Source of the DNA: Cellulosimicrobium arenosum
Lineage (GTDB): Bacteria; Actinomycetota; Actinomycetes; Actinomycetales; Cellulomonadaceae
Assembly: GCF_014837295.1 (NCBI RefSeq)
Contig: NZ_JACYHB010000007.1
Coordinates: 1 to 64,000 of the forward strand
Direction of reading: 5' to 3'
Length of the DNA stretch: 64,000 nucleotides
The translations under genes were made by a program, and so were the position numbers. Position 1 is the stretch's first letter, and each line of letters starts with the position of its first letter. Positions 41,431 through 55,051 of the stretch are shown here, piece after piece. The notes under the pieces are model-generated. The model was given only the letters and a program-made list of their open reading frames with translations, had not been told where the DNA came from and did not search any database.

Positions 41431-42930
41431 TCACCGTCCGGGCGCGGGGTAGGAGGCGCGCGGCAGGTGGTAGGCGAGGTCGACCGCGGTCTCGATCGCC
41501 TCGTCGAGGTCGAGACGGTGCTCGGCGACGAGGCGCGCGAGGTGGCCGGCGTCGATCCGGCGGGCGAGGTCGTGGCGGGCCGGGATCGAGCAGAACGCGC
41601 GCGTGTCGTCGACGAAGCCGCTCGTGTTGTAGAAGCCCGCGGTGTCCGTCGAGGCCTCGCGGAAGCGTCGCATCCCGTCCGGGGTGTCGAGGAACCACCA
41701 CGGCGCGCCGAGGCGCAGCGCCGGGTAGACCCCCGCGAGCGGCGCGAGCTCGCGCGAGAACGACGTCTCGTCGACCGTGAACGCGATCATCCGGAACCGC
41801 TCGTGGTGGCCGAACGCCTCGAGCACCGGGCGCAGCGCGCGCACGTACTCCGTCTGCTCGGGGATGTCGTAGCCCCGGTCGGGACCGTAGGCGCGCGCGA
41901 CACCGTCGCAGTGGTCGCGCAGCACGCCCGGGTGCAGCTGCATGACGAGCCCGTCCTCGGCGGACATCGCCGCCATCTGGAAGAGCATGTGCGCCGAGAA
42001 CGCGTCCGCCTCGGCCGGTGTGGCGGTGCCGCGGAGCGCGGCGTCGAGGATGCGGGTGGCGTCGGCGGCGTCGAGCGGCGTGGTGTCGGCGCGGAGGTGC
42101 CCGTGGTCGGTGGCCCGGGCGCCTGCCGCGACGAATGCCGCTCGGCGGGAGCGGAGGGCGTCGAGGTACGTCCGGTAGTCCACGACCTCGGTGCCGGCGG
42201 CCGAACCCAGCGCGGCGACCTGGGCCGCCCAGCCGGGGCGGTCCACGTGCAGGAGCGGGTCCGGGCGGAACGTCGGCACGACGCGATCGCCCCAGCCGTC
42301 GGCCGCGAGGCGCGCGTGGTCGGCGAGCGGTGACTGCGCCGGGTCCGTCGTCGCGAGGATCTCGATCCCGAAGCGTTCGAACAGCGCGCGCGGGCGGAAC
42401 TCGGGGCGGGCGAGCCGCTCGACGAGGTGGTCGTAGAGCGCGTCCGCGGTCTCGGCCGACGGCCGGGCGTGGGCCTCGAACACGTCGACGAGCGCGTGCT
42501 CCGTCCAGTAGCGCGTGGGCGTGCCGCGAAACAGGTGCCACCCGGCGCAGAACCGGCGCCAGATCTCGCGCGGGTCGGTCTCGGCCGTGGCGGTCCCGGC
42601 GGGCGCGGAGGCGAGGGGTGCGACGCCGAGGTCCTGGACGCCCCGCACGCCGGGAGCGCCGTGGGGCGACGTGCTCTGGGCGACGAGCATGCGCACGAGG
42701 TAGTGGTCGGGCGTCACGAACAGCTCCGCCGGGTTGCCGAACGGGGCGTCGTCGGCGAGCAGAGCCGCCTCGACGTGCCCGTGCATCGAGACGATCGGCA
42801 GTCCGCGCGTCGTCGCGTAGAGCTCACGCGCGAGCGGACGCAGGACGGGGTCCGCGGGCAGCGCGCGGTCGGGGTGCAGGGACCACGGCGCCGTCGCGGT
42901 GGTCGGGACACGATGGGCCGTGCTCGTCAC
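41431..42930 (-). CDS. uxaC: Glucuronate isomerase
   Basis: The 499-residue protein converts D-glucuronate to D-fructuronate (or galacturonate to tagaturonate). It has PIVSMHGHVEAALLADD near the N-terminus, FVTPDHYLVRMLVAQ, the FCAGWHLFRGTPTRYWTEHALVDVF block, and FEIL-type FGIEILATTDPAQSPLADHA. The C-terminal PWWFLDTPDGMRRFREASTDTAGFYNTSGFVDDTRAFCSIPARHD region is the UxaC signature. GTG 42930 with GGAGG a few bases upstream was chosen over a longer frame. Its promoter carries the same operator pair as lacI-uxuB-uxuA 11 kb away. Confidence 0.92.
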   Translation of the reverse strand: MTSTAHRVPTTATAPWSLHPDRALPADPVLRPLARELYATTRGLPIVSMHGHVEAALLADDAPFGNPAELFVTPDHYLVRMLVAQSTSPHGAPGVRGVQDLGVAPLASAPAGTATAETDPREIWRRFCAGWHLFRGTPTRYWTEHALVDVFEAHARPSAETADALYDHLVERLARPEFRPRALFERFGIEILATTDPAQSPLADHARLAADGWGDRVVPTFRPDPLLHVDRPGWAAQVAALGSAAGTEVVDYRTYLDALRSRRAAFVAAGARATDHGHLRADTTPLDAADATRILDAALRGTATPAEADAFSAHMLFQMAAMSAEDGLVMQLHPGVLRDHCDGVARAYGPDRGYDIPEQTEYVRALRPVLEAFGHHERFRMIAFTVDETSFSRELAPLAGVYPALRLGAPWWFLDTPDGMRRFREASTDTAGFYNTSGFVDDTRAFCSIPARHDLARRIDAGHLARLVAEHRLDLDEAIETAVDLAYHLPRASYPAPGR

Positions 42931-42948
42931 AGGTCCTCCAGGAATTGA

Positions 42949-43018
42949 TGCGAACGTTTGCATACTACGTGAGAGAGGTGACTGCATCCCAGTGGGATAA
43001 CGGCAGCAATCGTTCGCA
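42949..43018 (-). promoter_or_regulatory. uxaC promoter with paired LacI operators
   Basis: TGCGAACGTTTGCA (42949-42962) overlaps a leftward -10 TAGTAT (42967-42962). AGCAATCGTTCGCA (43005-43018), the same motif inverted, lies upstream. The centres are 56 bp apart, exactly as in the second copy of this arrangement at 53799-53868. Confidence 0.82.
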
Positions 43019-43033
43019 GCAGACTCCACGATG

Positions 43034-43070
43034 CCCGGGTCCGTCCCTCGTGACGAGGGACGGACCCGGG
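43034..43070 (-). terminator. Terminator after the 1129-residue secreted protein gene
   Basis: CCCGGGTCCGTCCCTCG (43034-43050), a TGA loop and the perfect 17-bp complement (43054-43070) form a very stable hairpin. It separates the leftward gene ending at 43086 from the uxaC promoter. Confidence 0.9.
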
Positions 43071-43085
43071 CGCCGTCCGGAGCCG

Positions 43086-46000
43086 TCAGCCGCAGGTGGG
43101 CTGAGCGTGCTCCGGCCTCGTGACGGTCTCCCGCTCGTCAGAGCCGTCGGACGGTCGAGCGGTGACGGTCACGGAGTCGGCCGCCGGTTCGACGTCGCGC
43201 ACCGCGAACGACTGGTACGCGTTCTTTCCGGGCGCCACGTCCGTGAAGGACCTGGTCCCGTACGGGGTGGTGACGTCGACGTCGACGTCCACCGCGTCGT
43301 CGTTGACGACCCGGACCGCGACGTAGGGGCGACCTGCCAGGCACCGGACCTCGGAGGTGGCGGAGACCGCGACCTCCTCCGGCCCGGCGTCGTCCTGCCC
43401 CGAGAGGCGTTCGATCCAGATGTTGCGGAACATCGGGTTCAGGCCGGGGTCACCGTGGTCCTGGAGCTTGATGTGACCGGGGGTGGGCCCTTCCTGCTGC
43501 CCGTTCCCCGTCTTCCCGGTGACGGCCACGTCGTCGTGCACGACCTGCCCGTTCCACACGACCGTGATGCGTGCGTCCTCGGTCTTGTTCCCGTCGGCGT
43601 CGAACCGTGCCGACCGGAACGTGATGTCGTACGTCTGCCACGTACCCATCGGCGTCGCGGCGTTCACGTCCGGTGCCTTCTGGAGGTAGATCGAGCCGGC
43701 GTCGTTCGTGGCCGGCGGGTCGATGCCGAAGGACTCGAGCACCTGGAGCTCGTAGCGCTCCTGGATGTAGATGCCGCTGTTGCCGCGGGACTGGCCCGTG
43801 ACGTCCGGGGCGTGCTCCGGCTGGTACCACTCGGCGTGCATCCGGAAGTCCTCGAACGTCTCCTTCGTGCGGATGTCACCGCCGAAGGACTCCATCGTCC
43901 CGTCCGCGACCGGCCAGGTGGCCGGGCTCCCGTCGGTCTTCTCCCACGCGTCGAGGTCGCTGCCGTCGAACAGCGTGATGCGCTCCGTCGGTGTGACCGT
44001 GAGGTTGTCGAGGTTGACGTGCCCGCGGTCGTCGTCCTCGTGCACGTAGGCGATCGTGTTGGCGCCAGCCTTCAGCGTCACGGTCTCGACCTGCGTCTGC
44101 CAGTTGTCCCACTGGACCGTGCTGGGGAGCCAGGTCTGCTTGACCTTCTCACCGTTGACGTAGAGGCTCAGGTTCCTCGGCGTCGGCTGCGGGTCGCTGT
44201 TCTGCCCGTTCGCGTACCGCAGGGCGAGGTCGTACGAGCCCGCCTCGTCTGCACGGACGGCGAACGTGGTGCGCGCGCCCGGCTCCCAGTTGCGGTCGAC
44301 GAACCCGGATCCCGTGTAGCCCGCGTGGTTGGAGTTCCAGCCCGCGCCGCCCTCGATGTTGGCGGCCTCGGCCTCGTACACCGGCGGGGGGACCGAGCCG
44401 TCGGGGAGCCGGTTGAGCGTGTACCAGGCCTCGGTGCTCCACAGCTCCTGCCCGCTCTCCGACGCGAACGGTCGCGGGGAGTGGACGTGCACGACGCGCC
44501 CGGGCTCGAGCCCGTCGATCGCCAGGGTCACGGTCTTGCCGTCCTCGGACAGCGTGGCCGACGTGACGTCGAGGTCCTCCTCGTCGACCTTCGGGCCGCC
44601 GTACTGCGGGGTGGCGACGTAGCGCCACTGCGCGGCCGTGTACTTCGCGGCGAGATCCTGCGCCGTCTCCTCGGACAGCGGCTGGGTGTACTCGATCTCG
44701 AACCCGCCGTCGACAGCGCGCATCTCGAGCATGTCGAACGCGTTGTTGTCGTCGTAGGTCAGCTTCTGCAGCCCGTAGCCGAGCTTGCCCGCCTGCCCCC
44801 AGTTGCCCGACCAGCCGATCCCGCCGACGTAGATCGAGCCGTCCGGGCCGATGCTGGTCCGGCTCACGCCGGACTCCAGGCCCTGGGTCATGCGGAACAC
44901 GGCGCCCTGCTCCTGGCCCGCGACGTCCTCGAGGTACGCGCGCTGCAGACCGCCGTACGTCACGTCGCCGATCGCCAGCTGCCCGGCGAAGACGCCCTCG
45001 GTCAGGACGACGGGGTTGCTCGGCGAGTTCGAGATCTCGCCGTGGGGCATCCACAGCACGGGCTCGGTCACCGGCTGGTCGTCGTACGGGCCGTCGGGGT
45101 TGGTGAAGTGGTTGTAGAACGCGCCCTCCTCGACCTTGACGAGCTTGGAGGTCGGGATGCGCACACCCTGGTTGTCGGCCACGTACATGCTGCCGTCGGT
45201 GCCCCAGCCCAGGCCGTTCGGCGTGCGCAGACCGCCGGCGACGTACTCGACCTCGCCGGTGTCCTTGCTGATCTTCATGACCGAGCCGCGGTTCTCCGCG
45301 AGCTGCGGGTCGAGCGAGTTGCCGCCGGGCACCATCGCGATGCCGGTCGTGATGTAGAAGTAACCGTCCTCGTACAGAAGACCGAACGCGAACTCGTGGT
45401 AGTTCTCGCCGAAGGGCCAGGTCGCGAAGGTGTCGTACTCGTCGGCGACCTCGTCGCCGTCGGTGTCGCGCAGGGCGGTCAGCCCGTCCTTCTCGGACAC
45501 GTAGATCGTGCCGTCGACGTACTTGATGCCCATCGGCTCCGTGAGGTTCTCGGCGACCTTGGTGTAGGTCACGTCCTCCGCGGTCCCGTCGCCGCTCGCG
45601 CCGTCGATCAGGTAGACCTCGCCGAGCTCGGTCAGCCGGTCACCGCCCCAGGTCGAGATGACCATCCGGCCGTCGGGCAGCCAGTCCATGCCCGTGACCT
45701 GCGGCTCGAAGCCGTCGGGGCGCAGGTCCGTCAGCGTGTAGTCGGGGTGGACCTCGGCCAGGGGCAGCCCGTCACCGGGGGTCTCGCTGATGTTCTCGCA
45801 CGACTTGCGTCCGGGCGACGTGACGCGCGTGACGTCGGCGTCGGTGCTCAGGACGCTGTTCGGCACGACGACGAAGTCCTGCGAGCCCGGCGGTCGCCAC
45901 TCGAGCAGGAGCCGCTGGCCGAACGCGTTGTCGAAGTGGTCGATGAGCAGCGCGTTGTAGCCGGCCTCGAGGTCGACCGACCCCTCCTCGGAGAGGACGC

Positions 46001-46475
46001 CGTGCGCGCCGGGGTTGTCCACCACCTCGGTGCCGTCGAGCAGGAGCCGGGCCCCGTCGTCGCTGGTGATCCGGAACTCGTACGTCCCGGCCGTCTCGAC
46101 GTCCAGGTACCCGGTGACCTCGGTGACGAACTGGTCCGTGAGCCCGAAGTCCTCGTCCGAGGTCCAGTCGATCGTCGGCATGATCTTGTCGACGTTGGGG
46201 GTCGAACCCGGCTTGAGCGTGCAGTACTCGTCGAGGGGGATCTGGACGTCGAACACCCGCAGCGTCACGCCGGGCTCCTGCGGTCGGATCTCGTCCTCCG
46301 CAGCGGCGGAGGCCGCCGGGCCGGCCGCTTGTGCCGTCGACTGGACCGGCAGCAGCACGGCGAGCGGGAGGGCGAGAGCGGATGCCATCGCGACCACCGA
46401 CCGTCTGCGGCGCGTCGGGTGACCGGCCCACCGTCTCGGTGTGCGTACGGGAAGGGAATGGGTCGAGCGTTCCAT
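43086..46475 (-). CDS. Secreted multidomain protein: PA14, beta-propeller sugar dehydrogenase-like, CBM, DUF1080 (3-keto-disaccharide hydrolase-like)
   Basis: The 1129-residue protein has, in order: a long signal peptide (to about 50); a PA14-like domain (about 85-210, TYEFRITSDDGARLLLDGTEVVDN); a six-blade-type propeller like PQQ-linked glucose/sorbosone dehydrogenases and PVC heme-binding proteins (about 230-640); and a CBM35/6-type domain (about 690-820, YEAEAANIEGGAGW...GYTGSGFVDRNW). A DUF1080/GH16-like jelly roll follows (about 825-1020, ITLFDGSDLDAWEK, RGNSGIYIQERYELQVLESFG), then the C-terminal module shared with the GH95 enzyme. DUF1080 members include a demonstrated 3-keto-disaccharide hydrolase. 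GGAGAGG precedes the ATG. Its promoter shares the LacI operator block with the TIM-barrel/ABC operon. Confidence 0.85.
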   Translation of the reverse strand: MERSTHSLPVRTPRRWAGHPTRRRRSVVAMASALALPLAVLLPVQSTAQAAGPAASAAAEDEIRPQEPGVTLRVFDVQIPLDEYCTLKPGSTPNVDKIMPTIDWTSDEDFGLTDQFVTEVTGYLDVETAGTYEFRITSDDGARLLLDGTEVVDNPGAHGVLSEEGSVDLEAGYNALLIDHFDNAFGQRLLLEWRPPGSQDFVVVPNSVLSTDADVTRVTSPGRKSCENISETPGDGLPLAEVHPDYTLTDLRPDGFEPQVTGMDWLPDGRMVISTWGGDRLTELGEVYLIDGASGDGTAEDVTYTKVAENLTEPMGIKYVDGTIYVSEKDGLTALRDTDGDEVADEYDTFATWPFGENYHEFAFGLLYEDGYFYITTGIAMVPGGNSLDPQLAENRGSVMKISKDTGEVEYVAGGLRTPNGLGWGTDGSMYVADNQGVRIPTSKLVKVEEGAFYNHFTNPDGPYDDQPVTEPVLWMPHGEISNSPSNPVVLTEGVFAGQLAIGDVTYGGLQRAYLEDVAGQEQGAVFRMTQGLESGVSRTSIGPDGSIYVGGIGWSGNWGQAGKLGYGLQKLTYDDNNAFDMLEMRAVDGGFEIEYTQPLSEETAQDLAAKYTAAQWRYVATPQYGGPKVDEEDLDVTSATLSEDGKTVTLAIDGLEPGRVVHVHSPRPFASESGQELWSTEAWYTLNRLPDGSVPPPVYEAEAANIEGGAGWNSNHAGYTGSGFVDRNWEPGARTTFAVRADEAGSYDLALRYANGQNSDPQPTPRNLSLYVNGEKVKQTWLPSTVQWDNWQTQVETVTLKAGANTIAYVHEDDDRGHVNLDNLTVTPTERITLFDGSDLDAWEKTDGSPATWPVADGTMESFGGDIRTKETFEDFRMHAEWYQPEHAPDVTGQSRGNSGIYIQERYELQVLESFGIDPPATNDAGSIYLQKAPDVNAATPMGTWQTYDITFRSARFDADGNKTEDARITVVWNGQVVHDDVAVTGKTGNGQQEGPTPGHIKLQDHGDPGLNPMFRNIWIERLSGQDDAGPEEVAVSATSEVRCLAGRPYVAVRVVNDDAVDVDVDVTTPYGTRSFTDVAPGKNAYQSFAVRDVEPAADSVTVTARPSDGSDERETVTRPEHAQPTCG

Positions 46476-46548
46476 CTGCCTGCCTCTCCATCGAGGACCT
46501 CGCGTTCGGCACCTGCGCGCGGGGCGCGTCAGGGTGCGCTTGTCGTCG

Positions 46549-46600
46549 CCACTATGGAGGCCGGCAGGACCGAGGACAACGAGTTGCCACTTGTTGCACC
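46549..46600 (-). promoter_or_regulatory. Promoter with LacI operator block for the multidomain secreted protein
   Basis: Read leftward: a 24-base block (46600-46577) identical to 48683-48706, overlapping -35 TTGTCC (46579-46574), then 19 bases and -10 TAGTGG (46554-46549). The palindromic part is GACAACGAGTTGCC (46575-46588). A repressor bound here would cover the -35 box. Confidence 0.75.
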
Positions 46601-46646
46601 TGACGTCTCTGCCCGAGCCGAGCCGAGCCGCAGACGGCGGCTGCTG

Positions 46647-47657
46647 CTACCCGAGCTGCGCGGTGGAGCCGCGCTCCACGAGCTTGGCCGGGAGCAGCGC
46701 GGGCCCCTGCGAACCGCTCGAGGAGGGCCGCAGCTGACCCAGGAGTCGTTGCATCGCGAACGCCCCGAAGTGGCGCAGCGGGGCAGCGACGGTCGTCAGC
46801 GGCGGGCTGCAGAAGTCCGACCCGAAGATGTTGTCGAACCCGACGACGCTCATGTCCCGCGGGACCTCGACGCCGAGGCGCACCAGTCCGCGCATGGCGC
46901 CGATCGCGACGAGGTCGTTGTACGCGACGGCCGCCGTGGCGGAGTGCCTGGCGAGGGTCTTGGCCGCCGAGAGCCCGCCCGCGAGCGTCGGCGCGAACGG
47001 ACCGAGGCGCCGGGCCTTCAGGCCGAGGTCCCGGGTCGCCTCGCGGAAGGCGCGCCAGCGCATCCCGTCGGCCCACGACGCCTCGGGCCCGGCCAGGTAC
47101 GCGAGGCTCGTGTGCCCCAGGCCGGCGAGGTGCTCCACCGCGCTGCGCATCCCCTGCGCGTTGTCCGTGAGCACGCTCGGGACGTCGGTCATCACGCGGT
47201 TCATGACGACGGTCGGGCGCTGCTTGGCGACCACCCGGATCGAGGAGTCCGAGAGCCGCGACGTCGCGAGGATCACGCCCTCCACCAGCGGGAGCGTGCG
47301 GTCGAGGGCCTGCCGCTCCGCCTCGTCGGACTCCTGCGCGTCGGCCACGAGGAGCGTGTACCCGGCGTCGGTCGCGGTCTTCTCCGCGCCTCGGATGATC
47401 TCGAAGAAGAACGGGTTGGTGACGTCCGCGACGACGATCGCGAGCAGCGCGGTCCGGCCCGTCGGCAGTCCGCGCGCGAGCGGGTTCGTCCGGTAGCCGA
47501 GCTCGTTCGCGATCCGGCGGATGCGTTCCGCCGTCTCCGCGTTGACGCGCCCGGGCCGCGAGAAGGCACGGGAGACGGTCGACGTCGCGACGCCCGCCGC
47601 CTGCGCGACGTCGTAGATGGTCGGGCTGGGGCTGCTCGTGCTCCCTGGGTCCTCCAT
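46647..47657 (-). CDS. LacI family regulator of the putative keto-glycoside regulon
   Basis: The predicted 336-residue protein has the LacI HTH TIYDVAQAAGVATSTVSRAFSRPGRVNAETAERI (about 12-45). A periplasmic-binding-like sensor domain follows with LAIVVADVTNPFFFEIIRGAE, HLAGLGHTSLAYLAGP, and VVGFDNIFGSDFCSPPLTTVAAP. ATG 47657 is chosen because TACGCT lies 8 bases upstream and no Shine-Dalgarno is seen (leaderless). A perfect palindrome at 47691-47704 lies just upstream. The two promoters with the shared 24-bp block flank the gene, so it is their likely regulator. Confidence 0.88.
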   Translation of the reverse strand: MEDPGSTSSPSPTIYDVAQAAGVATSTVSRAFSRPGRVNAETAERIRRIANELGYRTNPLARGLPTGRTALLAIVVADVTNPFFFEIIRGAEKTATDAGYTLLVADAQESDEAERQALDRTLPLVEGVILATSRLSDSSIRVVAKQRPTVVMNRVMTDVPSVLTDNAQGMRSAVEHLAGLGHTSLAYLAGPEASWADGMRWRAFREATRDLGLKARRLGPFAPTLAGGLSAAKTLARHSATAAVAYNDLVAIGAMRGLVRLGVEVPRDMSVVGFDNIFGSDFCSPPLTTVAAPLRHFGAFAMQRLLGQLRPSSSGSQGPALLPAKLVERGSTAQLG

Positions 47658-47690
47658 GCGGCGGGAGCGTAGTGCGCTCACGCCCGGATC

Positions 47691-47704
47691 GACAACCGGT
47701 TGTC
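47691..47704. promoter_or_regulatory. LacI-type palindrome upstream of the regulator gene
   Basis: GACAACCGGTTGTC is a perfect 14-bp palindrome with the central CG typical of LacI operators. It lies 34 bases before the regulator's ATG, a good place for autoregulation. Its half GACAAC/GTTGTC resembles the GGCAAC/GTTGCC halves at the two promoters nearby. Confidence 0.72.
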
Positions 47705-47757
47705 ATCGCGGTGGCTCCGATGGCGGCACGAAACTCTCCGGGTGCGGGGCAAGTCGT

Positions 47758-47795
47758 GGCAACCGCTTGACGGCCTCCGGGCCGCGCCCTGCAAT
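47758..47795 (+). promoter_or_regulatory. Promoter of the LarE-like gene with LacI-like half operator
   Basis: -35 TTGACG (47767-47772), 17 bases, -10 TGCAAT (47790-47795), 6 bases before GTG 47802, so leaderless. GGCAACCGCTTGAC (47758-47771) overlaps the -35 in the same position as the GGCAAC block at the two co-regulated promoters. Confidence 0.65.
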
Positions 47796-47801
47796 GGCTG
47801 G

Positions 47802-48578
47802 GTGAGCCGACGGACCCTGCCCCCGATCCCTGCGTTCGCGTCACCGACCGACGAGATCGTCGAGACGGTGATCACGACGATCGCACGCGTCGGCGCGAGC
47901 GGGCGGGTCGGGGTCGCCTACGCGGGGGACGCGGGCTCCGCGCTCCTGCTCGAGCTGTCGGTCCGCGTGGTCGGCAGGTCCCGCGTGGTCGCGCTCGTGA
48001 GCACCGGTCCCGACGCGGCGCCCGCGCGCCGGTGCGCCGTCGCGCAGGCGGCGAACGCGTGCGGGGTCGCGACCTTCGACGTGCTCGAGGGACGTGTCGA
48101 CGACGTGGCCCGGATCCTCGAGCTGTCCGCGGTCGTCGTGCCCGACGACACCGACGGGGCGGTGGCCGCGCCGGCCGATCCCGCGGCCACCGCCCCGTTC
48201 CTCGAGGCCGGTCTCGACCGCGCGACCGTCGCTCGGCTCGCGCACGACCTCGACCTCCCGGAGCCCGACCTGCCGGACGCCACGGCGCCGGTGCGCGTCG
48301 ACGTGCCTCCCGGAGCGGGCCCACGCGCCCCGGGACGCTCTGCGACGGAGGACGCCGTGCAGGTCGAGGCGGCCGAGAGCGAGCTGCGCAGGCTGGGTCT
48401 CGACGACCTGCGCGTCCACCACCACGGTGACCTCGCGCGGCTCGGCTCGTCCCGCTCCGACCTCCTCGGCGTGACGGCGGAGCCGCTGCGCGGGGAGGTC
48501 GTGAGCGCCGTGCGCTCCGCGGGCTTCCGGCTGGTCGCGCTCGACCTCGGCTCCGCGTCGGACCCGCGCGACGCCTGA
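47802..48578 (+). CDS. Degenerate LarE-like protein (PP-loop family)
   Basis: The predicted 258-residue protein follows the LarE layout. The N-terminal strand is GRVGVAYAGDAGSALLLE (about 35-52), where active LarE/PP-loop enzymes have SGGVDS. Then come ACGVATFDVLEG, EAGLDRATVARLAHDLDLPEPDLPDAT, VEAAESELRRLGLDDLRVHHHGDLARLG, and a final SAGFRLVALDLGS. LarE donates sulfur to make the nickel-pincer nucleotide of lactate racemase. Here the PP-loop is changed and the Cys-Leu-Ala-Ser-Arg motif with the sulfur-donor Cys is replaced by a PVRVDVPPGAG stretch, so that chemistry is unlikely. No larB, larC or larA lies in the window. The protein may keep a binding role. Confidence 0.65.
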   Translation: MSRRTLPPIPAFASPTDEIVETVITTIARVGASGRVGVAYAGDAGSALLLELSVRVVGRSRVVALVSTGPDAAPARRCAVAQAANACGVATFDVLEGRVDDVARILELSAVVVPDDTDGAVAAPADPAATAPFLEAGLDRATVARLAHDLDLPEPDLPDATAPVRVDVPPGAGPRAPGRSATEDAVQVEAAESELRRLGLDDLRVHHHGDLARLGSSRSDLLGVTAEPLRGEVVSAVRSAGFRLVALDLGSASDPRDA

Positions 48579-48682
48579 CGACTTCCAACCCTTGCCAGGT
48601 CTGCTCACGGCAACCTCCGGCAACTCGGGTGCACGTCGGCGAGATCGTTCGCAGGCCGGTGACCAGCACCGCAAAGGGCGTC

Positions 48683-48732
48683 GGTGCAACAAGTGGCAAC
48701 TCGTTGCCCACCCGGTGGGTGCCCCCTAGTGT
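48683..48732 (+). promoter_or_regulatory. Promoter and operator of the TIM-barrel/ABC/Gfo-Idh operon
   Basis: The interval 48579-48931 (353 bases) has no gene. It holds direct half sites GGCAACCTCCGGCAAC near 48608, the 24-base block 48683-48706 identical to the one at 46577-46600 (inverted), and a palindrome GGCAACTCGTTGCC (48695-48708). The latter overlaps -35 TTGCCC (48704-48709). After 17 bases comes -10 TAGTGT (48727-48732). About 200 bases of leader precede the first gene. Confidence 0.78.
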
Positions 48733-48931
48733 CCAACGCAACGCACGACGACCCGCCCCGGTGGGTTGCCAGACCTCGACGGAGAGGCAGTCCGATGGAG
48801 CACGACGTGAGCGGTGGACCGCCGCGTCGTGCCTCGGCCCTCCGGAAGGTCCGGTTCCACTGACCGACCGGCACCGGGCTCGGTGCCACGGACGGTGTCG
48901 ACGTCGACACCGATGATGAGAAGGAGGACCC

Positions 48932-49762
48932 GTGGTCTGGACACTGTCCGGCTTCGCGGACGAGATCTCGCCCGACCTCGCGACGCAGTGCGAGGTGGCC
49001 GTGCGGCTGGGCCTGCGCTTCGTCGAGTTCCGGAGCGCGTGGGAGACCAACGTCCTGGACCTCGACGAGGGTCAGCTCGGCCGCGTCGGCGAGATGCTCG
49101 GCCGGCACGACCTGCAGGTCTCCAGCGTCGGCTCGCCCATCGGGAAGATCTCGGTGGACGAGGACTTCGAGCCGCACCTCGCGCGGATGCGTCACGCCGC
49201 GCGTGTCGCGCGCCTGCTCGGCGCCCCGTACATCCGCGTGTTCTCCTTCTTCGTCCGTCCCGGCGAGGACCCGCGCGCGTCGCGGGACGTCGTGCTGCGA
49301 CGCATGACAGTGCTCGCGGAGGTGGCGGCCCAGGCCGGTGTCGTCCTGCTCCACGAGAACGAGAAGGACATCTACGGCGACACGCCGGAGCGCTGCCTCG
49401 ACGTCGTCGAGTCGGTCGGGTCGGAGCACCTCCGCCTCGCGTGGGACGCGGCGAACTTCGTCCAGGTGGGGGTGCGTCCGTTCACCGACGGCTTCCGCAT
49501 GCTGCGTCCGCACCTCGAGTACGTCCAGATCAAGGACGCGGTGCGGGGAACAGGTGAGGTCGTCCCGGCCGGTCGGGGCGACGGCGAGGTGGCCGAGACG
49601 GTGCGGGCGCTGCACGCCGACGGGTTCGACGGGTTCTTCTCGCTCGAGCCGCACCTGGGCTCGGCGCACACCCTCGGCGGGTTCTCCGGACCGGAGCTGT
49701 TCACGGAGGCATGGGAGGCCTTCACGGGGATCCTCGACGCCGAGCAGGTGGCCTACGCATGA
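48932..49762 (+). CDS. TIM-barrel sugar isomerase/epimerase
   Basis: The 276-residue xylose-isomerase-like barrel has the metal-binding positions in order: Glu in VVLLHENEKDIYGDTPERCLD, Asp in LRLAWDAANFVQVG, His/Lys in LEYVQIKDA and Glu in FFSLEPHLG. It starts MVWTLSGFADEISPDLATQ, as in IolE/tagatose-epimerase relatives. It would isomerise or cleave a keto-sugar or keto-glycoside inside the cell. AAGGAGG precedes GTG 48932. The stop overlaps the permease start (ATGA), so it is the first gene of a five-gene operon. Confidence 0.82.
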   Translation: MVWTLSGFADEISPDLATQCEVAVRLGLRFVEFRSAWETNVLDLDEGQLGRVGEMLGRHDLQVSSVGSPIGKISVDEDFEPHLARMRHAARVARLLGAPYIRVFSFFVRPGEDPRASRDVVLRRMTVLAEVAAQAGVVLLHENEKDIYGDTPERCLDVVESVGSEHLRLAWDAANFVQVGVRPFTDGFRMLRPHLEYVQIKDAVRGTGEVVPAGRGDGEVAETVRALHADGFDGFFSLEPHLGSAHTLGGFSGPELFTEAWEAFTGILDAEQVAYA

Positions 49763-50763
49763 CCGACGACCCGTCCTCGGACACCACGACGAGCTCGGCG
49801 ACGCGCTCGACGACGACCAGCTGGGAGAACCGCGCCATGACGACCACCCACGGAGTGCGACCCGCACCACGGGCCCGACGGGCGGCCGCGGCCTCGGGCG
49901 GGACGCGGCCCGAGTCGCCGGCCCGCGGCGGTCGGGGTGCCACGACCGTCACGAGCGCGGGGCCGTCGATCGGGAGCCGCGTGCTCTCCCTGCTCTCGGC
50001 GTCGTGGCGCCCGGTCGCCGTGCTGCTCGTGCTGTTCGCGGCGTGGTGGTTCGTCGCGTGGCGCGAGATGGTCCCGGCCTACCTGATCCCGTCGCCGGGA
50101 GCGGTCTGGCAGACGATGGTCGACGACTGGGCGATGCTGCTCGAGCACACGTGGGTCACGACGATGGAGACCATCATCGGGTTCGTGCTCGCGGCCGTGA
50201 TCGGCGTCGCGACGGCCGTGCTCCTGGTGTACTCCAAGACTGCGGAGAAGGCGCTGTACCCGTTGATCCTCTTCGCGCAGGTCATCCCCAAGATCGCGAT
50301 CGCACCGATCCTCGTCGTCTGGTTCGGCTTCGGGCTGACGCCGAAGATCGTCCTCGCCGTGCTCATCGCCTTCTTCCCGGTCGTGGTGTCCGCCGTCGCG
50401 GGACTGCGCTCGGTCGACCCCGAGCTCCTGGAGCTCTCGGCGACCATGGGCGCGTCCCGGTGGAAGACGTTCCGGAAGATCCGTTTCCCCGGTTCGCTCC
50501 CGCAGCTCATGTCCGGTCTGAAGGTCGCCGTCACCCTGGCGGTCGTCGGTGCGGTCGTGGGGGAGTTCGTCGGGGCCGACCGCGGGCTCGGCTACATCCT
50601 GCTGCTCGCGAGCGGCAACCTCGACGCACCGCTGCTGTTCGCGGACCTGATCCTCATGTCGATGATCGGCGTCGTCCTGTTCCTCCTGGTCGAGGTGCTC
50701 GAGCGCGTCCTCATCCCGTGGCACGCGTCGCGTCGGGGCAACCTCGCCCTCGCGTCCTCGTGA
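49759..50763 (+). CDS. ABC transporter permease, NitT/TauT (SsuC/ThiX) type
   Basis: The predicted 334-residue protein has an unusually long low-complexity N-terminus (about 80 residues of Thr, Ser, Ala, Arg). A six-helix permease domain follows with the EAA-like loop ELLELSATMGASRWKTFRKIRFPGSLPQL. This class moves small anions or pyrimidine/thiamine-precursor-like molecules. The ATG overlaps the TIM-barrel stop; an internal ATG near 49837 could be the real start. Confidence 0.85.
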   Translation: MTDDPSSDTTTSSATRSTTTSWENRAMTTTHGVRPAPRARRAAAASGGTRPESPARGGRGATTVTSAGPSIGSRVLSLLSASWRPVAVLLVLFAAWWFVAWREMVPAYLIPSPGAVWQTMVDDWAMLLEHTWVTTMETIIGFVLAAVIGVATAVLLVYSKTAEKALYPLILFAQVIPKIAIAPILVVWFGFGLTPKIVLAVLIAFFPVVVSAVAGLRSVDPELLELSATMGASRWKTFRKIRFPGSLPQLMSGLKVAVTLAVVGAVVGEFVGADRGLGYILLLASGNLDAPLLFADLILMSMIGVVLFLLVEVLERVLIPWHASRRGNLALASS

Positions 50764-50833
50764 TCTGACAAGCACGACTTTCCGGCAGTTCCCCGCCGTC
50801 CGAGCGGACGGCACGAGAAGAAGGGCTCTCCCC

Positions 50834-51865
50834 ATGCGTGGTGGCAAGTTCGCAGTGTCGCTGGCCGTGGCCGGCGTCGTCGTAGCAGGAACCTCGGCCT
50901 GCGGGCAGTCCGGGACCGACGGCGGGGACTCCCCGGGCGGGCAGGGGGCGGAGGGCCTGACCGAGGTGACCGTCACCCTCAACTGGGTGCCCTACGGGGA
51001 GCACGCCCCGTTCTACTACGGGGTCGAGCAGGGGATCTTTGAGGACGAGGGCATCGACCTGACGATCCAGCCGGGCAACGGTTCCGGGAACACGGTGCAG
51101 CAGGTCGCCCAGCAGAACACCGACTTCGGGTGGGCCGACACGCCGCCCCTGGCGAACGCGATCACGTCCGGCATGCCGGTGCGCAGCGTCGGCGTCTTCC
51201 TCCAGACCGGGCCCAGCTCGGTCGAGTTCTTCGCCGACCAGGGCATCACCGAGCCCGCCGACCTCGTGGGCAAGACCGTGGGCGGGACCCCCGGCGACGC
51301 CATGTACGGCACGTTTCCCGCGTGGCTCGAGATCAACGGGGTCGACCCCGCGGACGTGACCGTGGTCAACGTCGACGCCGCGGGCAAGATCGCCGCGCTC
51401 ATCGAGGGCAAGGTCGACGCGATCCAGGGGTTCTACCACGACCAGGCGCCCACGATCGAGAACCAGACCGGCGAGGAGGTCGACGCGCTGCCGTTCGCCG
51501 ACTTCGGCATGAACCTGCTGGGCACGGGACTGGTGGCCAACGAGTCGCTCATCGCCGACGACCCGGACCTGGTCGAGGCGATGGTGCGCGCGACGTCGCG
51601 ATCGTTCCTCGAGGCGTCGGAGAACCAGGAGGCCGCGGTCACCGCGATGGCGGAGGGCGCCGAGCAGGCCCCGGACGAGAGCGTCATGGCCGCCCAGCTC
51701 GAGACGACGGTCGACCTGCTCGACCTCGACAACGCCCCGGCCCCCGGCGTCAACACCGAGCAGCAGTGGACGGACACGCTGACGTTCCTCGCGGACAACA
51801 CGGACTTCGACGGAGCCGTCGCGCCCACCGACTACTGGGACGCGTCCTTCGGGGAGGACCTGTGA
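50834..51865 (+). CDS. NMT1/THI5-like ABC substrate-binding lipoprotein
   Basis: The 343-residue protein has a lipobox ending GTSAC and an NMT1/THI5 fold: VTLNWVPYGEHAPFYYGVEQGIFEDEGIDLTIQPGNGSGNTVQQVAQQNTDFGWADTPPL. The typical GKTVGGTPGDAMYGTF and the aromatic FYHDQAP follow. Such proteins bind aromatic or heterocyclic small molecules or sulfonates. In a sugar operon this is unexpected and may point to a glycoside aglycone or a modified sugar as ligand. AGAAGAAGGG precedes the ATG. Confidence 0.88.
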   Translation: MRGGKFAVSLAVAGVVVAGTSACGQSGTDGGDSPGGQGAEGLTEVTVTLNWVPYGEHAPFYYGVEQGIFEDEGIDLTIQPGNGSGNTVQQVAQQNTDFGWADTPPLANAITSGMPVRSVGVFLQTGPSSVEFFADQGITEPADLVGKTVGGTPGDAMYGTFPAWLEINGVDPADVTVVNVDAAGKIAALIEGKVDAIQGFYHDQAPTIENQTGEEVDALPFADFGMNLLGTGLVANESLIADDPDLVEAMVRATSRSFLEASENQEAAVTAMAEGAEQAPDESVMAAQLETTVDLLDLDNAPAPGVNTEQQWTDTLTFLADNTDFDGAVAPTDYWDASFGEDL

Positions 51866-52680
51866 CGACGGCGGCCGCGCTCGAGGCGTCAGGACCCGCG
51901 GTCGACACCGAACCGATCATCGAGGTCTCGAACCTCTCGATGCGGTTCAGGTCGAAGCGGTCCGAGACGCTCGCGCTCGACGACGTCTCGCTGTCGGTCA
52001 TGCCGGGCGAGTTCGTCACGATCGCGGGACCGTCGGGCTGCGGCAAGTCGACGCTGCTGAAGATCATCGCCGGCCTCACGCTCGTCACCGACGGCGAGGT
52101 CCGCCTCTACGGCGAGCGGGTCACCCGGCCGCAGCGCGAGATCGGGTTCGCGTTCCAGCGGTCCGCGCTGCTCGAGTGGCGCGGCGTGCGCAAGAACATC
52201 CTGCTCCAGGCCGAGATGCGCGGGATGGATCGGCGGCACGCGGAGGAGCGGGCCGAGCACCTGATCGAGCTGACCGGGCTCACCGGCTTCGAGAAGGCGC
52301 TCCCGCACGAGCTGTCCGGTGGCATGCAGCAGCGCGTCGCGCTGTGCCGTGCGCTCCTGCACGAGCCCCGCGTGCTCCTCATGGACGAGCCGTTCGGTGC
52401 GCTGGACGCGCTGACGCGCGAGCAGATGAACATCGAGATGAACCGGATCTGGCGCGAGACGGGCACGACCGTCGTCCTCGTCACCCACTCCGTCCCGGAG
52501 GCGGTGTTCCTGGGCAGCCGGATCGTGGTCATGAGCCCACGGCCCGGTCGCATCGTGGAGACGCTCGTGCCGGGGCTTCCGGACGAGCGCGAGTACAGCA
52601 CGACCCTCACCGACCCGCGCTTCACCACGGCCGCGGAGCGGCTGCGCGACCTGCTCGGTGCGAGCCACGTCGCCGAGTGA
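51862..52680 (+). CDS. ABC transporter ATP-binding protein, NitT/TauT type
   Basis: The predicted 272-residue protein has Walker A GPSGCGKST (about 55-63), Q-loop GFAFQRSALLEWRGVRKN, signature LSGGMQQR, Walker B VLLMDEPFGALD, and H-loop LVTHSVPEA. It is fully intact. The GTG overlaps the binding-protein stop (GTGA). It completes the importer with the permease and binding protein. Confidence 0.92.
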   Translation: MTTAAALEASGPAVDTEPIIEVSNLSMRFRSKRSETLALDDVSLSVMPGEFVTIAGPSGCGKSTLLKIIAGLTLVTDGEVRLYGERVTRPQREIGFAFQRSALLEWRGVRKNILLQAEMRGMDRRHAEERAEHLIELTGLTGFEKALPHELSGGMQQRVALCRALLHEPRVLLMDEPFGALDALTREQMNIEMNRIWRETGTTVVLVTHSVPEAVFLGSRIVVMSPRPGRIVETLVPGLPDEREYSTTLTDPRFTTAAERLRDLLGASHVAE

Positions 52681-52741
52681 CCGGCGACGGCGGGTACGGC
52701 AGGTGCGTGAGGGACGACACGAGGAGCAGGAGGACGACGGC

Positions 52742-53818
52742 ATGAGCACGGACCGCCTCGGCGTCGGAGTCGTGGGCATGGGCGGTATCGCCACGATGCA
52801 CGCGCGGGCGCTGCGTGAGCTGGGGGAGCGCGTGCGGCTGGTGGCCTACAGCGGCGGGGCCGGTCCCGCGCGCGAGGAGGCGCTCGCGGGCTGGCCCGCG
52901 GCGCACCTCGCGCCGCAGGAGGTGATCTCCCATCCCGAGGTCGACGTCGTGGCGGTCTGCTCGCCGAGCGGGACGCACGCGGAGCTGGCGCTCGCGGCCC
53001 TCGAGGCGGGGCGGCACGTCGTCGTCGAGAAGCCGCTCGCGCTGGACGTGGGAGACGCGCTGCGCGTCGCCGAAGCCGCCCGGGAGCGGGGCCTGATGGT
53101 CTCGACGATCTCCCAGCGGCGCTTCGAGCCCGAGCACGTCGCGCTCAAGAGAGCCGTGGACACGGGGGCACTCGGGGAGGTCCGGCTCGCGACGACGCAC
53201 GTCCACTGGTTCCGGGACGACGACTACTACCGCGCGGCCGGGTGGCGGTCCACGACGGCGCAGGGCGGGGGGTCGTTGATGAACCAGGGCGTGCACAACC
53301 TCGACCTGCTCCGTTGGCTGTGCGGCCCGGTCGACTCCGTGACCGCGCAGCACGGGACGCTCGGGCACGCGATGGAGGCCGAGGACACGACGGTCGCCAC
53401 CGTGCGGTTCACGTCCGGTGCGCTCGGGGTCGTCACGACGACGACGACGACACCGCCCGGCTTCCCGGCCACGATCACGCTGCTCGGCGCGCGGGGGGCC
53501 GTGGAGCTCGGCCAGGGCGACGTGCTCCGGTGGGACGTCCCCGGCGTCCCGGCGCCGGGCTCGGGAGCGATCGCGAGCGGAGCGGCCGACCCCCTCGCGA
53601 TCGGCCACGCGGGCCACCTCGCCCAGTGGCGGCAGATCGTCACGGCGCTCGACTCGGCGTCGCCGGTCCCGGTGGGCATCGACGACGCCGTCGAGACCGT
53701 CCGCCTCCTGTGCGCGATCTACGCGGCGGCCGAGACCGGCGCGACGGTCCGTCCGTCCGAGCTGGCCACGCCGTCCCGCCAGATCCAGGACCGATCGTTG
53801 CGAACGATTGCAGAATGA
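52742..53818 (+). CDS. Gfo/Idh/MocA family oxidoreductase
   Basis: The predicted 358-residue protein has the Rossmann motif GVVGMGGIATMHA (about 9-21), CSPSGTHAELA, and the catalytic EKPLA (about 96-100). The second domain has GGGSLMNQGVHNLDLLRWL, with the His-x-x-Asp motif. Family members oxidise sugars, including glycosides at C3, with NAD. AGGAGG precedes the ATG. It is the last gene of the TIM-barrel/ABC operon. Its final codons contain the upstream operator of the uxu genes (53799-53812). Confidence 0.87.
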   Translation: MSTDRLGVGVVGMGGIATMHARALRELGERVRLVAYSGGAGPAREEALAGWPAAHLAPQEVISHPEVDVVAVCSPSGTHAELALAALEAGRHVVVEKPLALDVGDALRVAEAARERGLMVSTISQRRFEPEHVALKRAVDTGALGEVRLATTHVHWFRDDDYYRAAGWRSTTAQGGGSLMNQGVHNLDLLRWLCGPVDSVTAQHGTLGHAMEAEDTTVATVRFTSGALGVVTTTTTTPPGFPATITLLGARGAVELGQGDVLRWDVPGVPAPGSGAIASGAADPLAIGHAGHLAQWRQIVTALDSASPVPVGIDDAVETVRLLCAIYAAAETGATVRPSELATPSRQIQDRSLRTIAE

Positions 53819-53868: not shown

Positions 53869-53938
53869 GATCTGCGCTCGGACATCCCGCGGCGCCAGAG
53901 CATTGTCCCACCAGAACCCGCCGTCCGAGGAGAGTGCC

Positions 53939-55051
53939 GTGGTCACAGCCCGTGACGTCGCCCGAGAGATCGGGGTGTCGGTCTCGACGGTCTCGCGTGC
54001 GCTCGCCGAGCCCGACCGGGTGGCGACCGAGACGCGCGACCGTGTCGTCGCCGCGGCGTCCCGGCTCGGCTACCGGCCGAATCGGGCGGCGAGCGGTCTC
54101 CGGGCCGGACGGACCGGGGCCCTGGGCCTCGTCGTCCCCGACCTCGAGAACCCCTACTTCGCGTCGATCACCAAGGGAGTGCAGGCGCGCGCCCGGCGGA
54201 CGGGCCACGCGGTGTTCGTCGTCGATGCCGGGGAGGACCCGGTGCTCGAGCCCGAGCTCGTCGCGGGGCTGCGGTCGCAGACGGACGGGCTCGTGCTGTG
54301 CTCCCCGCGCGCCGTCGTCGCCGACCTCGAGGCCGCGCGCGACGCACCCGTCGTGCTGGTGAACCTCCGCATCGACGACGTCCCCTCGGTGTCGACGGAC
54401 GACACGCGCGGTGTCGTGCTCGCGGTCGAGCACCTGCGCGCGCTCGGGCACCGGCGGGTCGCCTACGTCGGCGGCCCGGAGCGGTCGTGGTCGGACGGGC
54501 GCCGACGCGCGGGCCTCGAGCTCGCGCAGTCCCGCTGTCCCGACGTCGAGACGGTCGCCCTGGGCGCGTTCCGTCCGCGGGTCGAGGGCGGACGGGCCGC
54601 CGCCGACCTCGTCGTCGCGTCCGGCGCGACCGCGGTGCTCGCCTACAACGACCTGGTCGCGCTGGGTCTCGTCGCCCGGCTGCGCGAGCGCGGCGTGTCC
54701 GTCCCCGAGGACCTCAGCGTGGTCGGCTTCGACGACACGTTCGTCGCGACCCTCTCCTCGCCGCCGCTCACGACCGTCCGGACGGACCTCGCACAGCTCG
54801 GCGCGCGCGCCGTCGACCGCCTCCTCGCTGCGCTCGACGCGCGGCGTCCCACCCGTTCCACGCGAGCGTCGGACGACCACGCCGTCGACGGCACCGGCCG
54901 TCGTGCCCACGACGGCGCCGACGGCCCGACGGACGAGCTCCCCGTCGAGCTCGTCGTCCGCGGCTCGACGACCGTCCCGCGCGTCCTCGCCTCGACCACG
55001 GTGCCCTCCGGGGCACACCGCCCCACCACCGACCCGCAGGAGGCCGTGTGA
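53939..55051 (+). CDS. LacI family regulator of glucuronate genes (UxuR-like role)
   Basis: The predicted 370-residue protein has the HTH TARDVAREIGVSVSTVSRALAEPDRVATETRDRV at the very N-terminus (about 2-36), and a sensor domain with LGLVVPDLENPYFASITKGVQ, AVEHLRALGHRRVAYVGGP, and VVGFDDTFVATLSSPPLTTVRTD. A disordered acidic insert lies near residues 310-335. GTG 53939 with GAGGAG upstream is preferred over a TTG 36 bases earlier. It probably senses fructuronate or a related uronate. The GTGA overlap with uxuB couples them. Confidence 0.88.
   Translation: MVTARDVAREIGVSVSTVSRALAEPDRVATETRDRVVAAASRLGYRPNRAASGLRAGRTGALGLVVPDLENPYFASITKGVQARARRTGHAVFVVDAGEDPVLEPELVAGLRSQTDGLVLCSPRAVVADLEAARDAPVVLVNLRIDDVPSVSTDDTRGVVLAVEHLRALGHRRVAYVGGPERSWSDGRRRAGLELAQSRCPDVETVALGAFRPRVEGGRAAADLVVASGATAVLAYNDLVALGLVARLRERGVSVPEDLSVVGFDDTFVATLSSPPLTTVRTDLAQLGARAVDRLLAALDARRPTRSTRASDDHAVDGTGRRAHDGADGPTDELPVELVVRGSTTVPRVLASTTVPSGAHRPTTDPQEAV

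Follow-up and report, generated by a model that had tools for sequence, protein, structure and literature searches.

The closest described systems to the locus reported here are the 3-keto-glycoside pathways of Bacteroides (BT2156-BT2160) and Caulobacter (LacABC with DUF1080), in which, in the part of PMC9007349 available to us, DUF1080 likewise stands with sugar oxidoreductase and sugar-isomerase-type genes and DUF1080 proteins are tied to 3-ketotrehalose and 3'-ketolactose. According to the accessible portion of PMC11501099, BT2157 and BT2158 mutants of Bacteroides grew on raffinose-family sugars without defect. Two further relatives are the C-glycoside deglycosidases DgpABC and CarABC and the glucuronide-3-dehydrogenase of PDB 8tdi, named for C3 oxidation of glucuronides. 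A broad-specificity glycan pathway, reportedly that of Nasseri et al. 2024, is grouped with the latter enzyme. On the side of nickel-dependent uronate use, LarA homologues have been described in uronate gene contexts (excerpts of PMC7583248 and PMC6978723), and LarE is defined by the PP-loop SGGXDS, with Ser180, Arg212 and Arg214 binding phosphate (excerpt of PMC9283937). A literature search with little coverage of subscription papers returned no published account of the present gene set, and the phrases 3-keto-glucuronide and glucuronide-3-dehydrogenase had no match in the literature searched, subscription papers lying mostly outside it.

We analysed a window of 64,000 nt from Cellulosimicrobium arenosum (contig NZ_JACYHB010000007.1 of GCF_014837295.1, positions 1 to 64,000, forward strand), whose features are collected in Table 1. 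The gene identities given in an earlier note on this DNA, namely DUF1080/propeller, TIM barrel, NMT1 importer and Gfo/Idh, held by Pfam. In contrast to the Bacteroides and Caulobacter pathways, this set is actinobacterial and placed under LacI control, its DUF1080 domain shares one polypeptide with PA14, propeller and CBM35 domains, and uptake is predicted to proceed through an NMT1-type ABC importer. The Gfo protein scored far below the curated BT_2158/BT_2159 3-dehydrogenase models (24-25 bits, cut-offs 650-750), yet it is related to C3 dehydrogenases in the PDB; its relatives there are 3q2i/3q2k, DgpA (7xr9, E 1.7e-27) and the glucuronide-3-dehydrogenase 8tdi, the last being one among several at similar distance.

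Table 1. Genes and predicted operators of the LacI1 locus and its uronate neighbours in the window.
Feature	Position	Strand	Evidence and remarks
uxaC glucuronate isomerase	41431..42930	-	510 bits, cut-off 387; LacI2-type boxes at 42949 and 43008
1129-aa protein, secreted (signal region by eye): PA14, propeller (DUF7133/SGL-like), CBM35/CBM6, DUF1080 (3-keto-disaccharide hydrolase)	43086..46475	-	Pfam; PDB relatives
Composite LacI1 operator (three half-sites), predicted	46575..46600	-	before DUF1080 gene; contains block 46577-46600
LacI-family regulator LacI1	46647..47681	-	Pfam; homologues 58-94% identical
Perfect palindrome GACAACCGGTTGTC	47691..47704	.	upstream of LacI1; without third half-site
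Composite operator, predicted	47748..47771	+	before LarE-like gene
LarE-derived protein, 258 aa	47802..48578	+	no PP-loop or cysteine motif; C-terminal domain retained (48360-48575)
Composite operator, predicted	48683..48708	+	before TIM-ABC-Gfo operon; contains block 48683-48706
Xylose-isomerase-like TIM barrel (isomerase, epimerase or hydratase; predicted)	48932..49762	+	Pfam
ABC importer permease (BPD_transp_1)	49759..50763	+	Pfam (scanned as 49711-50763); 78/78 importer loci
NMT1-type substrate-binding lipoprotein (lipobox by eye)	50834..51865	+	Pfam 157 bits, cut-off 21; 78 loci
ABC importer ATPase	51862..52680	+	Pfam (scanned inside longer frame 51130-52680); 77/78 importer loci
Gfo/Idh/MocA oxidoreductase (putative 3-keto-sugar reductase or glycoside 3-dehydrogenase)	52742..53818	+	Pfam; PDB relatives
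Second LacI regulator LacI2	53903..55051	+	Pfam; own boxes at 53799 and 53858; outside LacI1 regulon
Mannitol-dehydrogenase-family (uxuB-type) protein	55048-56589	+	uronate catabolism neighbour
uxuA mannonate dehydratase	56586-57707	+	uronate catabolism neighbour

The earlier note had described a 24-base block at two promoters in opposite orientation, and this was confirmed: GGTGCAACAAGTGGCAACTCGTTG was found on the minus strand before the DUF1080 gene and on the plus strand before the TIM-ABC-Gfo operon, and nowhere else in the 3.95-Mb genome with up to three mismatches. The related site that it had placed before the LarE-like gene was also found there, as GGCAAGTCGTGGCAACCGCTTGAC. A palindrome of the type RRCAACNNGTTGYY overlaps the block and occurs at five places genome-wide, three of them within the cluster (46575, 47691 and 48695), that at 47691 lying upstream of LacI1's own gene. 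We then compared the window with 13 relatives from Cellulosimicrobium, Oerskovia flava and Promicromonospora, and the three-half-site form appeared three times per cluster in 14/14 clusters (42 sites); the first palindrome search left the third half-site optional, with contexts judged by eye, and a search demanding it also gave 42. In some genomes of the genus scan the reversed control pattern equalled the real one in frequency; with up to two mismatches in the own genome it gave five matches versus three, all three real sites having no mismatch. A chance operator was rejected because the block matches only twice in the genome and three sites recur in every cluster. The claimed overlap with the -35 elements is plausible, each operator containing TTGNC and being followed by a weak -10-like hexamer about 17-19 bp on (by eye); a generic sigma-70 scan of 42800-49000 returned no promoter.

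LacI1 has the HTH and the periplasmic-binding-like domain of a LacI repressor, with a palindromic operator predicted at its own and its target promoters. A palindrome-like site precedes the LacI1 gene in 11 of the 14 clusters with at most one mismatch, and LacI1 probably regulates itself through the palindrome at 47691. Since the listed GTG start would overlap this gene's own promoter, translation probably begins at an ATG near 47657. The gene set was kept across the relatives' stretches (seven from Cellulosimicrobium and O. flava, six of Promicromonospora type): the DUF1080 protein was found in 12 of the 13, with no match in G117, and the TIM barrel in the seven, being absent from the six. 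Judged by this conservation of gene set and predicted operators, the LacI1 regulon is real, and the proposal of a single LacI regulon over three structural targets is supported. The earlier note would have counted a block that is not conserved as a refutation, which does not apply. The uronate genes uxaC, uxuB and uxuA follow LacI2, with a predicted operator different from that of LacI1. We rejected DUF1080 and uxaC as a single LacI1 operon because the boxes of uxaC are of LacI2 type and the two genes are separated by a hairpin (43033-43071).

The 3-keto-glycoside chemistry suggested in the earlier note was supported at the level of gene families and context. The DUF1080 domain (PF06439) scored 134 bits against a cut-off of 26.8, and 70 of 78 importer-family loci had one or more genes of the DUF1080, ThuA/GSDH, Gfo, TIM-barrel or DUF993 clusters no farther than about 10 kb away. 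Regarding the sugar, plain 3-keto-glucosides or disaccharides might be degraded, with the uronate genes near by cluster proximity only. The DUF1080 substrates described elsewhere favour such a reading, as do the ThuA/GSDH, DUF993 and Gfo genes that accompany the importer family in Micromonospora and others, and the six Promicromonospora-type stretches, which had no match to uxaC, uxuB or uxuA. However, in three other genera LacI1 homologues (58-73% identical) adjoin genes for beta-glucuronidase or uronate use, the beta-glucuronidases scoring 912 and 919 bits (cut-off 544), and Pfam identified a CBM35 in the secreted protein; some CBM35s bind uronic acids. We therefore regard neutral glycosides as an unlikely substrate, though one to be taken seriously. 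Further neighbours of the LacI1 homologues are an MFS_2 protein, LarE, an AIRC-family LarB, an FGGY kinase and LarA. A scan of 13 loci of other genera with the operator matrix found operator-like sites, but none in five of the 13. In G032, a second regulated place holds a GSDH/CBM6 protein together with a secreted TIM barrel of the IolE-like kind, and blastp of the window TIM barrel against the secreted TIM family gave no usable similarity.

The LarE-like protein of the earlier note is a derivative of LarE and not LarE itself. At E 0.001 the ORF had no Pfam match, and TIGR00268 covered only its C-terminal half (49 bits, cut-off 150); its C-terminal domain is homologous to residues 195-257 of LarE (PDB 5udq), with the Glu200 and Arg212 positions kept. 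Unlike LarE, which serves nickel-pincer nucleotide synthesis, it has neither the PP-loop nor the catalytic cysteine motif. The SGGXDS stretch reads AGDAGS in the window and SGDPAS, SGDESS and AGDVGS in three other long forms; it is absent from 15 short forms and present in all ten intact ones. The window protein also lacks the RCxxCK and PCLASR stretches of intact relatives, and with them the sacrificial Cys176 / CXXC-C cluster. Among 29 family genomes (19 with degenerate or short LarE, 10 with intact LarE), LarA was found in none of the 19, the own genome included, versus 10/10, and LarC in none of these 19 versus 9/10. With motifs and partners both missing, a sulfur transferase function was rejected. 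The start codon lies 6 nt past the -10 reading, and the transcript is therefore possibly leaderless.

These losses would also suit a mere decaying pseudogene travelling with its promoter. Fifteen of the 19 non-intact relatives keep nothing but the C-terminal part, the N-terminal half shrinking or missing; the window copy deviates at the Arg214 position (Arg, His or Gln among the sequences, His here) and at the Glu223 position; and dN/dS over 72 codons between the window and O. flava was 0.58. In the 60-codon core, however, 12 comparisons involving degenerate or short copies gave dN/dS of 0.04-0.34, three between intact LarE copies gave 0.15-0.30, and an alignment of 11 sequences, with the Ser180 region outside the aligned part, held 32 invariant and 11 nearly invariant columns, the Arg212 position being invariant. 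The operator before the gene was retained in every cluster, short forms stand at separate places on the LacI1 tree, and in two C. cellulans-group sequences the short ORF begins at an ATGA that shares bases with the upstream frame's stop codon (by eye). On these alignments the C-terminal domain is under purifying selection, and simple decay is improbable. In an order-wide sample of 396 genomes, with 14 candidates scored in each, LarE-C outside the host family stood, among the matches listed, always in open frames of at least 282 aa, an open frame being no proof of an intact gene; the short form thus looks limited to the family.

NMT1-type binders often hold planar rings, and the operon joins a TIM barrel to a Gfo protein related to DgpA, so that the importer could take up an aromatic compound, with TIM barrel and Gfo acting like DgpABC or CarABC. 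Unlike those systems, the nine proteins scanned matched no small-subunit family and no aromatic-degradation family, and the TIM barrel had no relative among solved PDB chains at E 1e-8, which makes an aromatic or C-glycoside system very unlikely. The aromatic or heterocyclic ligand of the earlier note had been drawn from the NMT1 family name by itself and was not supported, and its flavonoid or C-glycoside idea fared worse than a glucuronide or uronide, the likelier substrate because LacI1 homologues adjoin beta-glucuronidase, Lar and uronate genes elsewhere. Equally doubtful is an importer for a thiamine precursor, sulfonate or other cofactor, in the regulon by accident: the best solved relatives of the binding protein are 3ix1 (a distant thiamine-precursor/formylaminopyrimidine binder, E 1.3e-19), 4nmy and THI5-type proteins, but its SsuA_fam and TauA (taurine binder) matches fell far below the curated cut-offs (60 bits versus 163.5 and 34 versus 304), no Rfam family was found in 38000-60000, so that a TPP riboswitch is absent there and a thiamine link through one was rejected, keto-sugar genes lie near 70 of the 78 importer-family members, and the operator precedes the importer operon in all 14 clusters.

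Of the importer loci with a LacI1 match of at least 67% identity, 15/16 also carry a LarE-like gene, Agromyces L092 being the exception. Most Micromonospora-type importer loci had neither a LacI1 match nor uronate matches and, as the six Promicromonospora-type stretches have no uxaC, uxuB or uxuA, the importer cargo need not be uronate-derived.

The distribution of uronate genes across the 29 genomes points to an exchange of pathways. UxuA was found in 18 of the 19 genomes with degenerate or short LarE versus none of the ten with intact LarE, O. flava G011 having neither UxuA nor LarA; beta-glucuronidase (E 1e-100) was found in 0/19 versus 7/10, three intact-LarE genomes giving no match. These genomes are related, and the 19 represent some two independent losses, one in the Cellulosimicrobium/Oerskovia flava/Promicromonospora group and one in G079. 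Uronate routes through GntE-type LarA (D-mannonate/D-gluconate 2-epimerase) fit the LacI1 loci of other genera; C. arenosum differs in having no LarA, with UxuA taking its place across most of the 19.

The explanation that we favour as a whole, with moderate confidence, is that LacI1 is an autoregulated sugar-acid repressor over oxidative breakdown of uronide-type glycosides, the LarE relic included. LacI1 would bind composite operators over three promoters as well as its own, and would release the three units when a uronide-type glycoside is present. The secreted PA14-propeller-CBM35-DUF1080 protein may then cleave the glycosidic bond after C3 oxidation, by keto-glycoside hydrolysis or elimination; the NMT1-type importer would take up a small keto or enone sugar product; and the TIM-barrel isomerase or hydratase with the Gfo/Idh oxidoreductase would convert this product back to an ordinary sugar or sugar acid. 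Further metabolism of glucuronate would fall to the adjacent LacI2 genes uxaC, uxuB and uxuA. This oxidative set seems to have replaced a hydrolytic one, GH2 beta-glucuronidase and nickel-dependent LarA, which other genera of the family still keep under a LacI and an operator of this kind. As a remnant of the older set, the LarE-like gene would have lost sulfur transfer and retained its C-terminal domain; our guess is that its product, small and cytosolic, uses the retained Arg212 and Glu200 positions to bind a phosphorylated metabolite and so acts on the regulon or on one regulon enzyme. More tentatively, LarE may have been cut down to its C-terminal domain at least three times independently for a new role in a sugar-acid regulon, which may itself have swapped beta-glucuronidase and a nickel epimerase for extracellular oxidation and cleavage, a planar keto-sugar being fetched by the NMT1 importer.

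If true, C. arenosum and its relatives would hold a regulated actinobacterial 3-keto-glycoside system whose dedicated importer belongs to a class seldom tied to sugars, and a single regulator with its operator would have persisted while most of its target genes were exchanged. A LarE C-domain standing alone in nature would then be at hand for asking what this domain does without sulfur transfer, and for related genera there would be a testable claim, namely that nickel-dependent LarA replaces mannonate dehydratase in glucuronide use.

The gene identities proposed in the earlier note hold: a PA14-propeller-CBM35-DUF1080 protein, a LacI regulator (LacI1), a TIM barrel, a permease, an NMT1 binding protein, an ATPase and a Gfo/Idh protein. 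Conservation of this set was followed in 13 of the 20 stretches taken, each 20 kb long and from a related genome that has the LacI1/LarE-like pair; species of Cellulosimicrobium and Promicromonospora as well as Oerskovia flava are among these genomes. We found that the order DUF1080 - LacI1 / LarE-like - (TIM) - permease - binding protein - ATPase - Gfo was repeated in the relatives, with no DUF1080 match in the G117 stretch, unlike the other 12. The TIM barrel was matched in 7/7 Cellulosimicrobium/O. flava stretches and 0/6 Promicromonospora-type stretches, as were the neighbouring uxaC and uxuB, and uxuA was matched in 6/7 and 0/6, respectively.

A 24-base block had been proposed as an operator shared by the DUF1080 and importer promoters, with a related site at the LarE-like promoter. 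A search of the genome confirmed the block at both places, with zero further matches in the 3.95 Mb at up to three mismatches, and the related site was present as a diverged copy. The block and a RRCAACNNGTTGYY-type palindrome overlap; the palindrome occurs at five places genome-wide, three within the LacI1 cluster, one of these upstream of the LacI1 gene. Three composite sites per cluster were identified in 14/14 clusters (the window plus the 13 relatives; 42 in total) when a third half-site was required, and a search not requiring it agreed (contexts read by eye). All 42 structural sites consist of three half-sites, two direct, 11 bp apart, and one inverted, the commonest form being GGCAA(C/G), a spacer of five, GGCAAC, a spacer of two, and (G/C)TTGNC. 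The palindrome at the LacI1 gene's own promoter, found in 11/14 clusters with at most one mismatch, lacks the third half-site, as read by eye. The composite sites can be read with TTGNC as a putative -35 and a -10-like hexamer about 17-19 bp downstream; a sigma-70 consensus scan of 42800-49000 found no promoter. Pattern scanning of 13 genomes of the genus (up to two mismatches) gave three sites in eight genomes, five each in G032 and G088, one in G098 (at two mismatches; the other listed matches had none or one) and no composite site in G488 and G491. With the pattern reversed as a control, each genome gave 0 to 5 matches, the own genome five, indicating that the operator count alone is not significant and that in-cluster placement matters. 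As judged from sequence comparison, this is a real, conserved and regulated system.

Positions of regulatory features in the window
Feature	Position	Place
24-base block	46577-46600	DUF1080 gene promoter
24-base block	48683-48706	importer operon promoter
Composite LacI1 operator	46575-46600	DUF1080 gene promoter
Composite LacI1 operator	47748-47771	LarE-like gene promoter
Composite LacI1 operator	48683-48708	importer operon promoter
LacI2-type boxes	42949, 43008	uxaC promoter
LacI2-type boxes	53799, 53858	LacI2 promoter
Lone LacI2-type box	48643	directly ahead of the importer operon's LacI1 operator
Perfect 18-bp hairpin	43033-43071	between the DUF1080 gene and uxaC

The genes uxaC, LacI2 (a second LacI regulator), uxuB and uxuA are another unit, apart from the LacI1 genes. 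In the window, inverted boxes TGCGAACGATT ... AATCGTTCGCA, 59 bp apart, lie ahead of uxaC and ahead of LacI2. All eight clusters scanned (window included) had two such places, with boxes 58-60 bp apart; both boxes were found at both places in five clusters and one box was absent at one place in three. The second place precedes uxuB in the C. cellulans group. The hairpin between the DUF1080 gene and uxaC (z -5.8) may be a terminator that lacks a T run.

Three further genera of the family have LacI1 homologues, 58-73% identical (G079 and G008; G005 and G076, the latter a partial piece; G016 and G081). Their neighbours, which vary by genome, include a GH2 beta-glucuronidase (912 bits in G008 and 919 in G081, cut-off 544), LarE, LarA and, as scanned in G016, an AIRC-family LarB. 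Also present in one or another of the genomes are uxaC, TRAP transporter genes, an FGGY kinase, an MFS_2 protein and reductases of the mannitol-dehydrogenase family, and G079 has a ManD-type mannonate dehydratase. A matrix built from nine operator sites of the window's group was applied to 13 loci of these genera. Operator-like sites were detected in 8/13, in several near LacI1, uxaC, beta-glucuronidase, LarE, LarA or TRAP genes, and none was detected by this matrix in L060, L063, L180, L183 and L185. The simplest inference from these neighbours and sites is that the LacI1 signal is a glucuronide or uronate. At four loci of the other genera (L062, L061, L064, L182), glucuronide use apparently proceeds via beta-glucuronidase, LarABCE and an FGGY kinase, without UxuA, and a nickel-dependent mannonate-to-gluconate route is predicted there from gene content.

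Of all parts of the system, the LarE relic stands out as the most unusual. A LarE relative (E 1e-10) was found in 29 of 121 genomes of the family sample, and frame inspection divided these into 10 intact forms (SGGVDS and PCLASR present), four long forms without either motif, the window's among them, and 15 that keep the C-terminal part alone. LarA was present in 10/10 genomes with intact LarE versus 0/19 others, LarC in 9/10 versus 0/19 (exception G026, 80% complete), GH2 beta-glucuronidase (E 1e-100) in 7/10 versus 0/19 (internal stop in two of the seven) and UxuA in 0/10 versus 18/19 (exception O. flava, G011), a pattern that, the 29 genomes being kin, represents about two independent switches. 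LarA and LarC were likewise absent from G007 and G098, genomes of the genus with no LarE-like match.

The retained domain can be aligned with LarE residues 195-257 (PDB 5udq); Glu200 and Arg212 are invariant positions among 11 aligned sequences, Arg214 and Glu223 variable ones. By the NG86 method, 12 comparisons with degenerate or short forms gave a dN/dS of 0.04-0.34 over 60 codons, and three between intact forms gave 0.15-0.30. Over 72 codons including the ragged tail, where 9/13 pairs were computable, the ratio ranged from 0.09 to 0.58, the highest value being window versus O. flava. Between the window and C. terreum the N-terminal part is constrained too, though less strongly (0.34 versus 0.21). 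In a 21-row tree of LacI1, C. sp. Q4280, whose LarE-like form is long but degenerate, is sister (100/99) to the C. cellulans group of short forms (98/95). The short forms of the Promicromonospora type group separately (100/98), and G079 falls with the intact-LarE genomes (84/84). This placing indicates at least three separate reductions, the third on the weaker G079 branch. As read by eye, a start codon lies 6 nt after the -10 reading in two Promicromonospora sequences. In two of the C. cellulans group (L074, L075), likewise by eye, the short LarE-derived ORF overlaps the end of an upstream frame at an ATGA, which suggests translational coupling. This short upstream frame begins at the promoter (upstream of 7392 in L074). 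Our reading of the LarE-like protein is that of a functional derivative, which is no longer LarE but is not debris either.

In one scan, at least 78 named loci encoded a member of the binding-protein family, in genera from Cellulosimicrobium to Micromonospora, Jiangella, Catellatospora and Actinophytocola, with a permease match at 78/78 and an ATPase match at 77/78 of the listed loci. Clustering of called genes placed at least one DUF1080, ThuA/GSDH, Gfo, TIM-barrel or DUF993 neighbour at 70/78, a count taken without a background control. Among the eight misses, L114, L132 and L134 are full length; the other five loci measure less than 13 kb, and one of them (L090) has a Gfo match by tblastn. 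Solved relatives of the Gfo protein include 3q2i/3q2k, which we take to be uronic-acid sugar-nucleotide 3-dehydrogenases, DgpA and a glucuronide-3-dehydrogenase. In other phyla, 3-keto-disaccharide cleavage is linked to DUF1080 proteins (PMC9007349). An extra operator pair was seen in 2/13 genomes of the genus (G032, G088). In G032 (locus L186, 4394-10008) the pair is flanked on one side by an inositol-phosphate-synthase-like gene and on the other by a secreted IolE-like TIM barrel, after which comes a GSDH/CBM6/PKD protein. Promicromonospora thailandica (L085) has a secreted TIM barrel and a protein of the ThuA/GSDH cluster after its DUF1080 gene. As gene context, these secreted TIM barrels and GSDH-type neighbours support a keto-sugar theme for the system. 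The importer cargo might, as a conjecture, be a planar 3-keto-glycal or pyranone. A uronide is the likely, if unproven, substrate of the LacI1-controlled system, which, given seven DUF1080 (PF06439) matches in its own genome (L001-L007, six above cut-off), may be one of several DUF1080 systems there.
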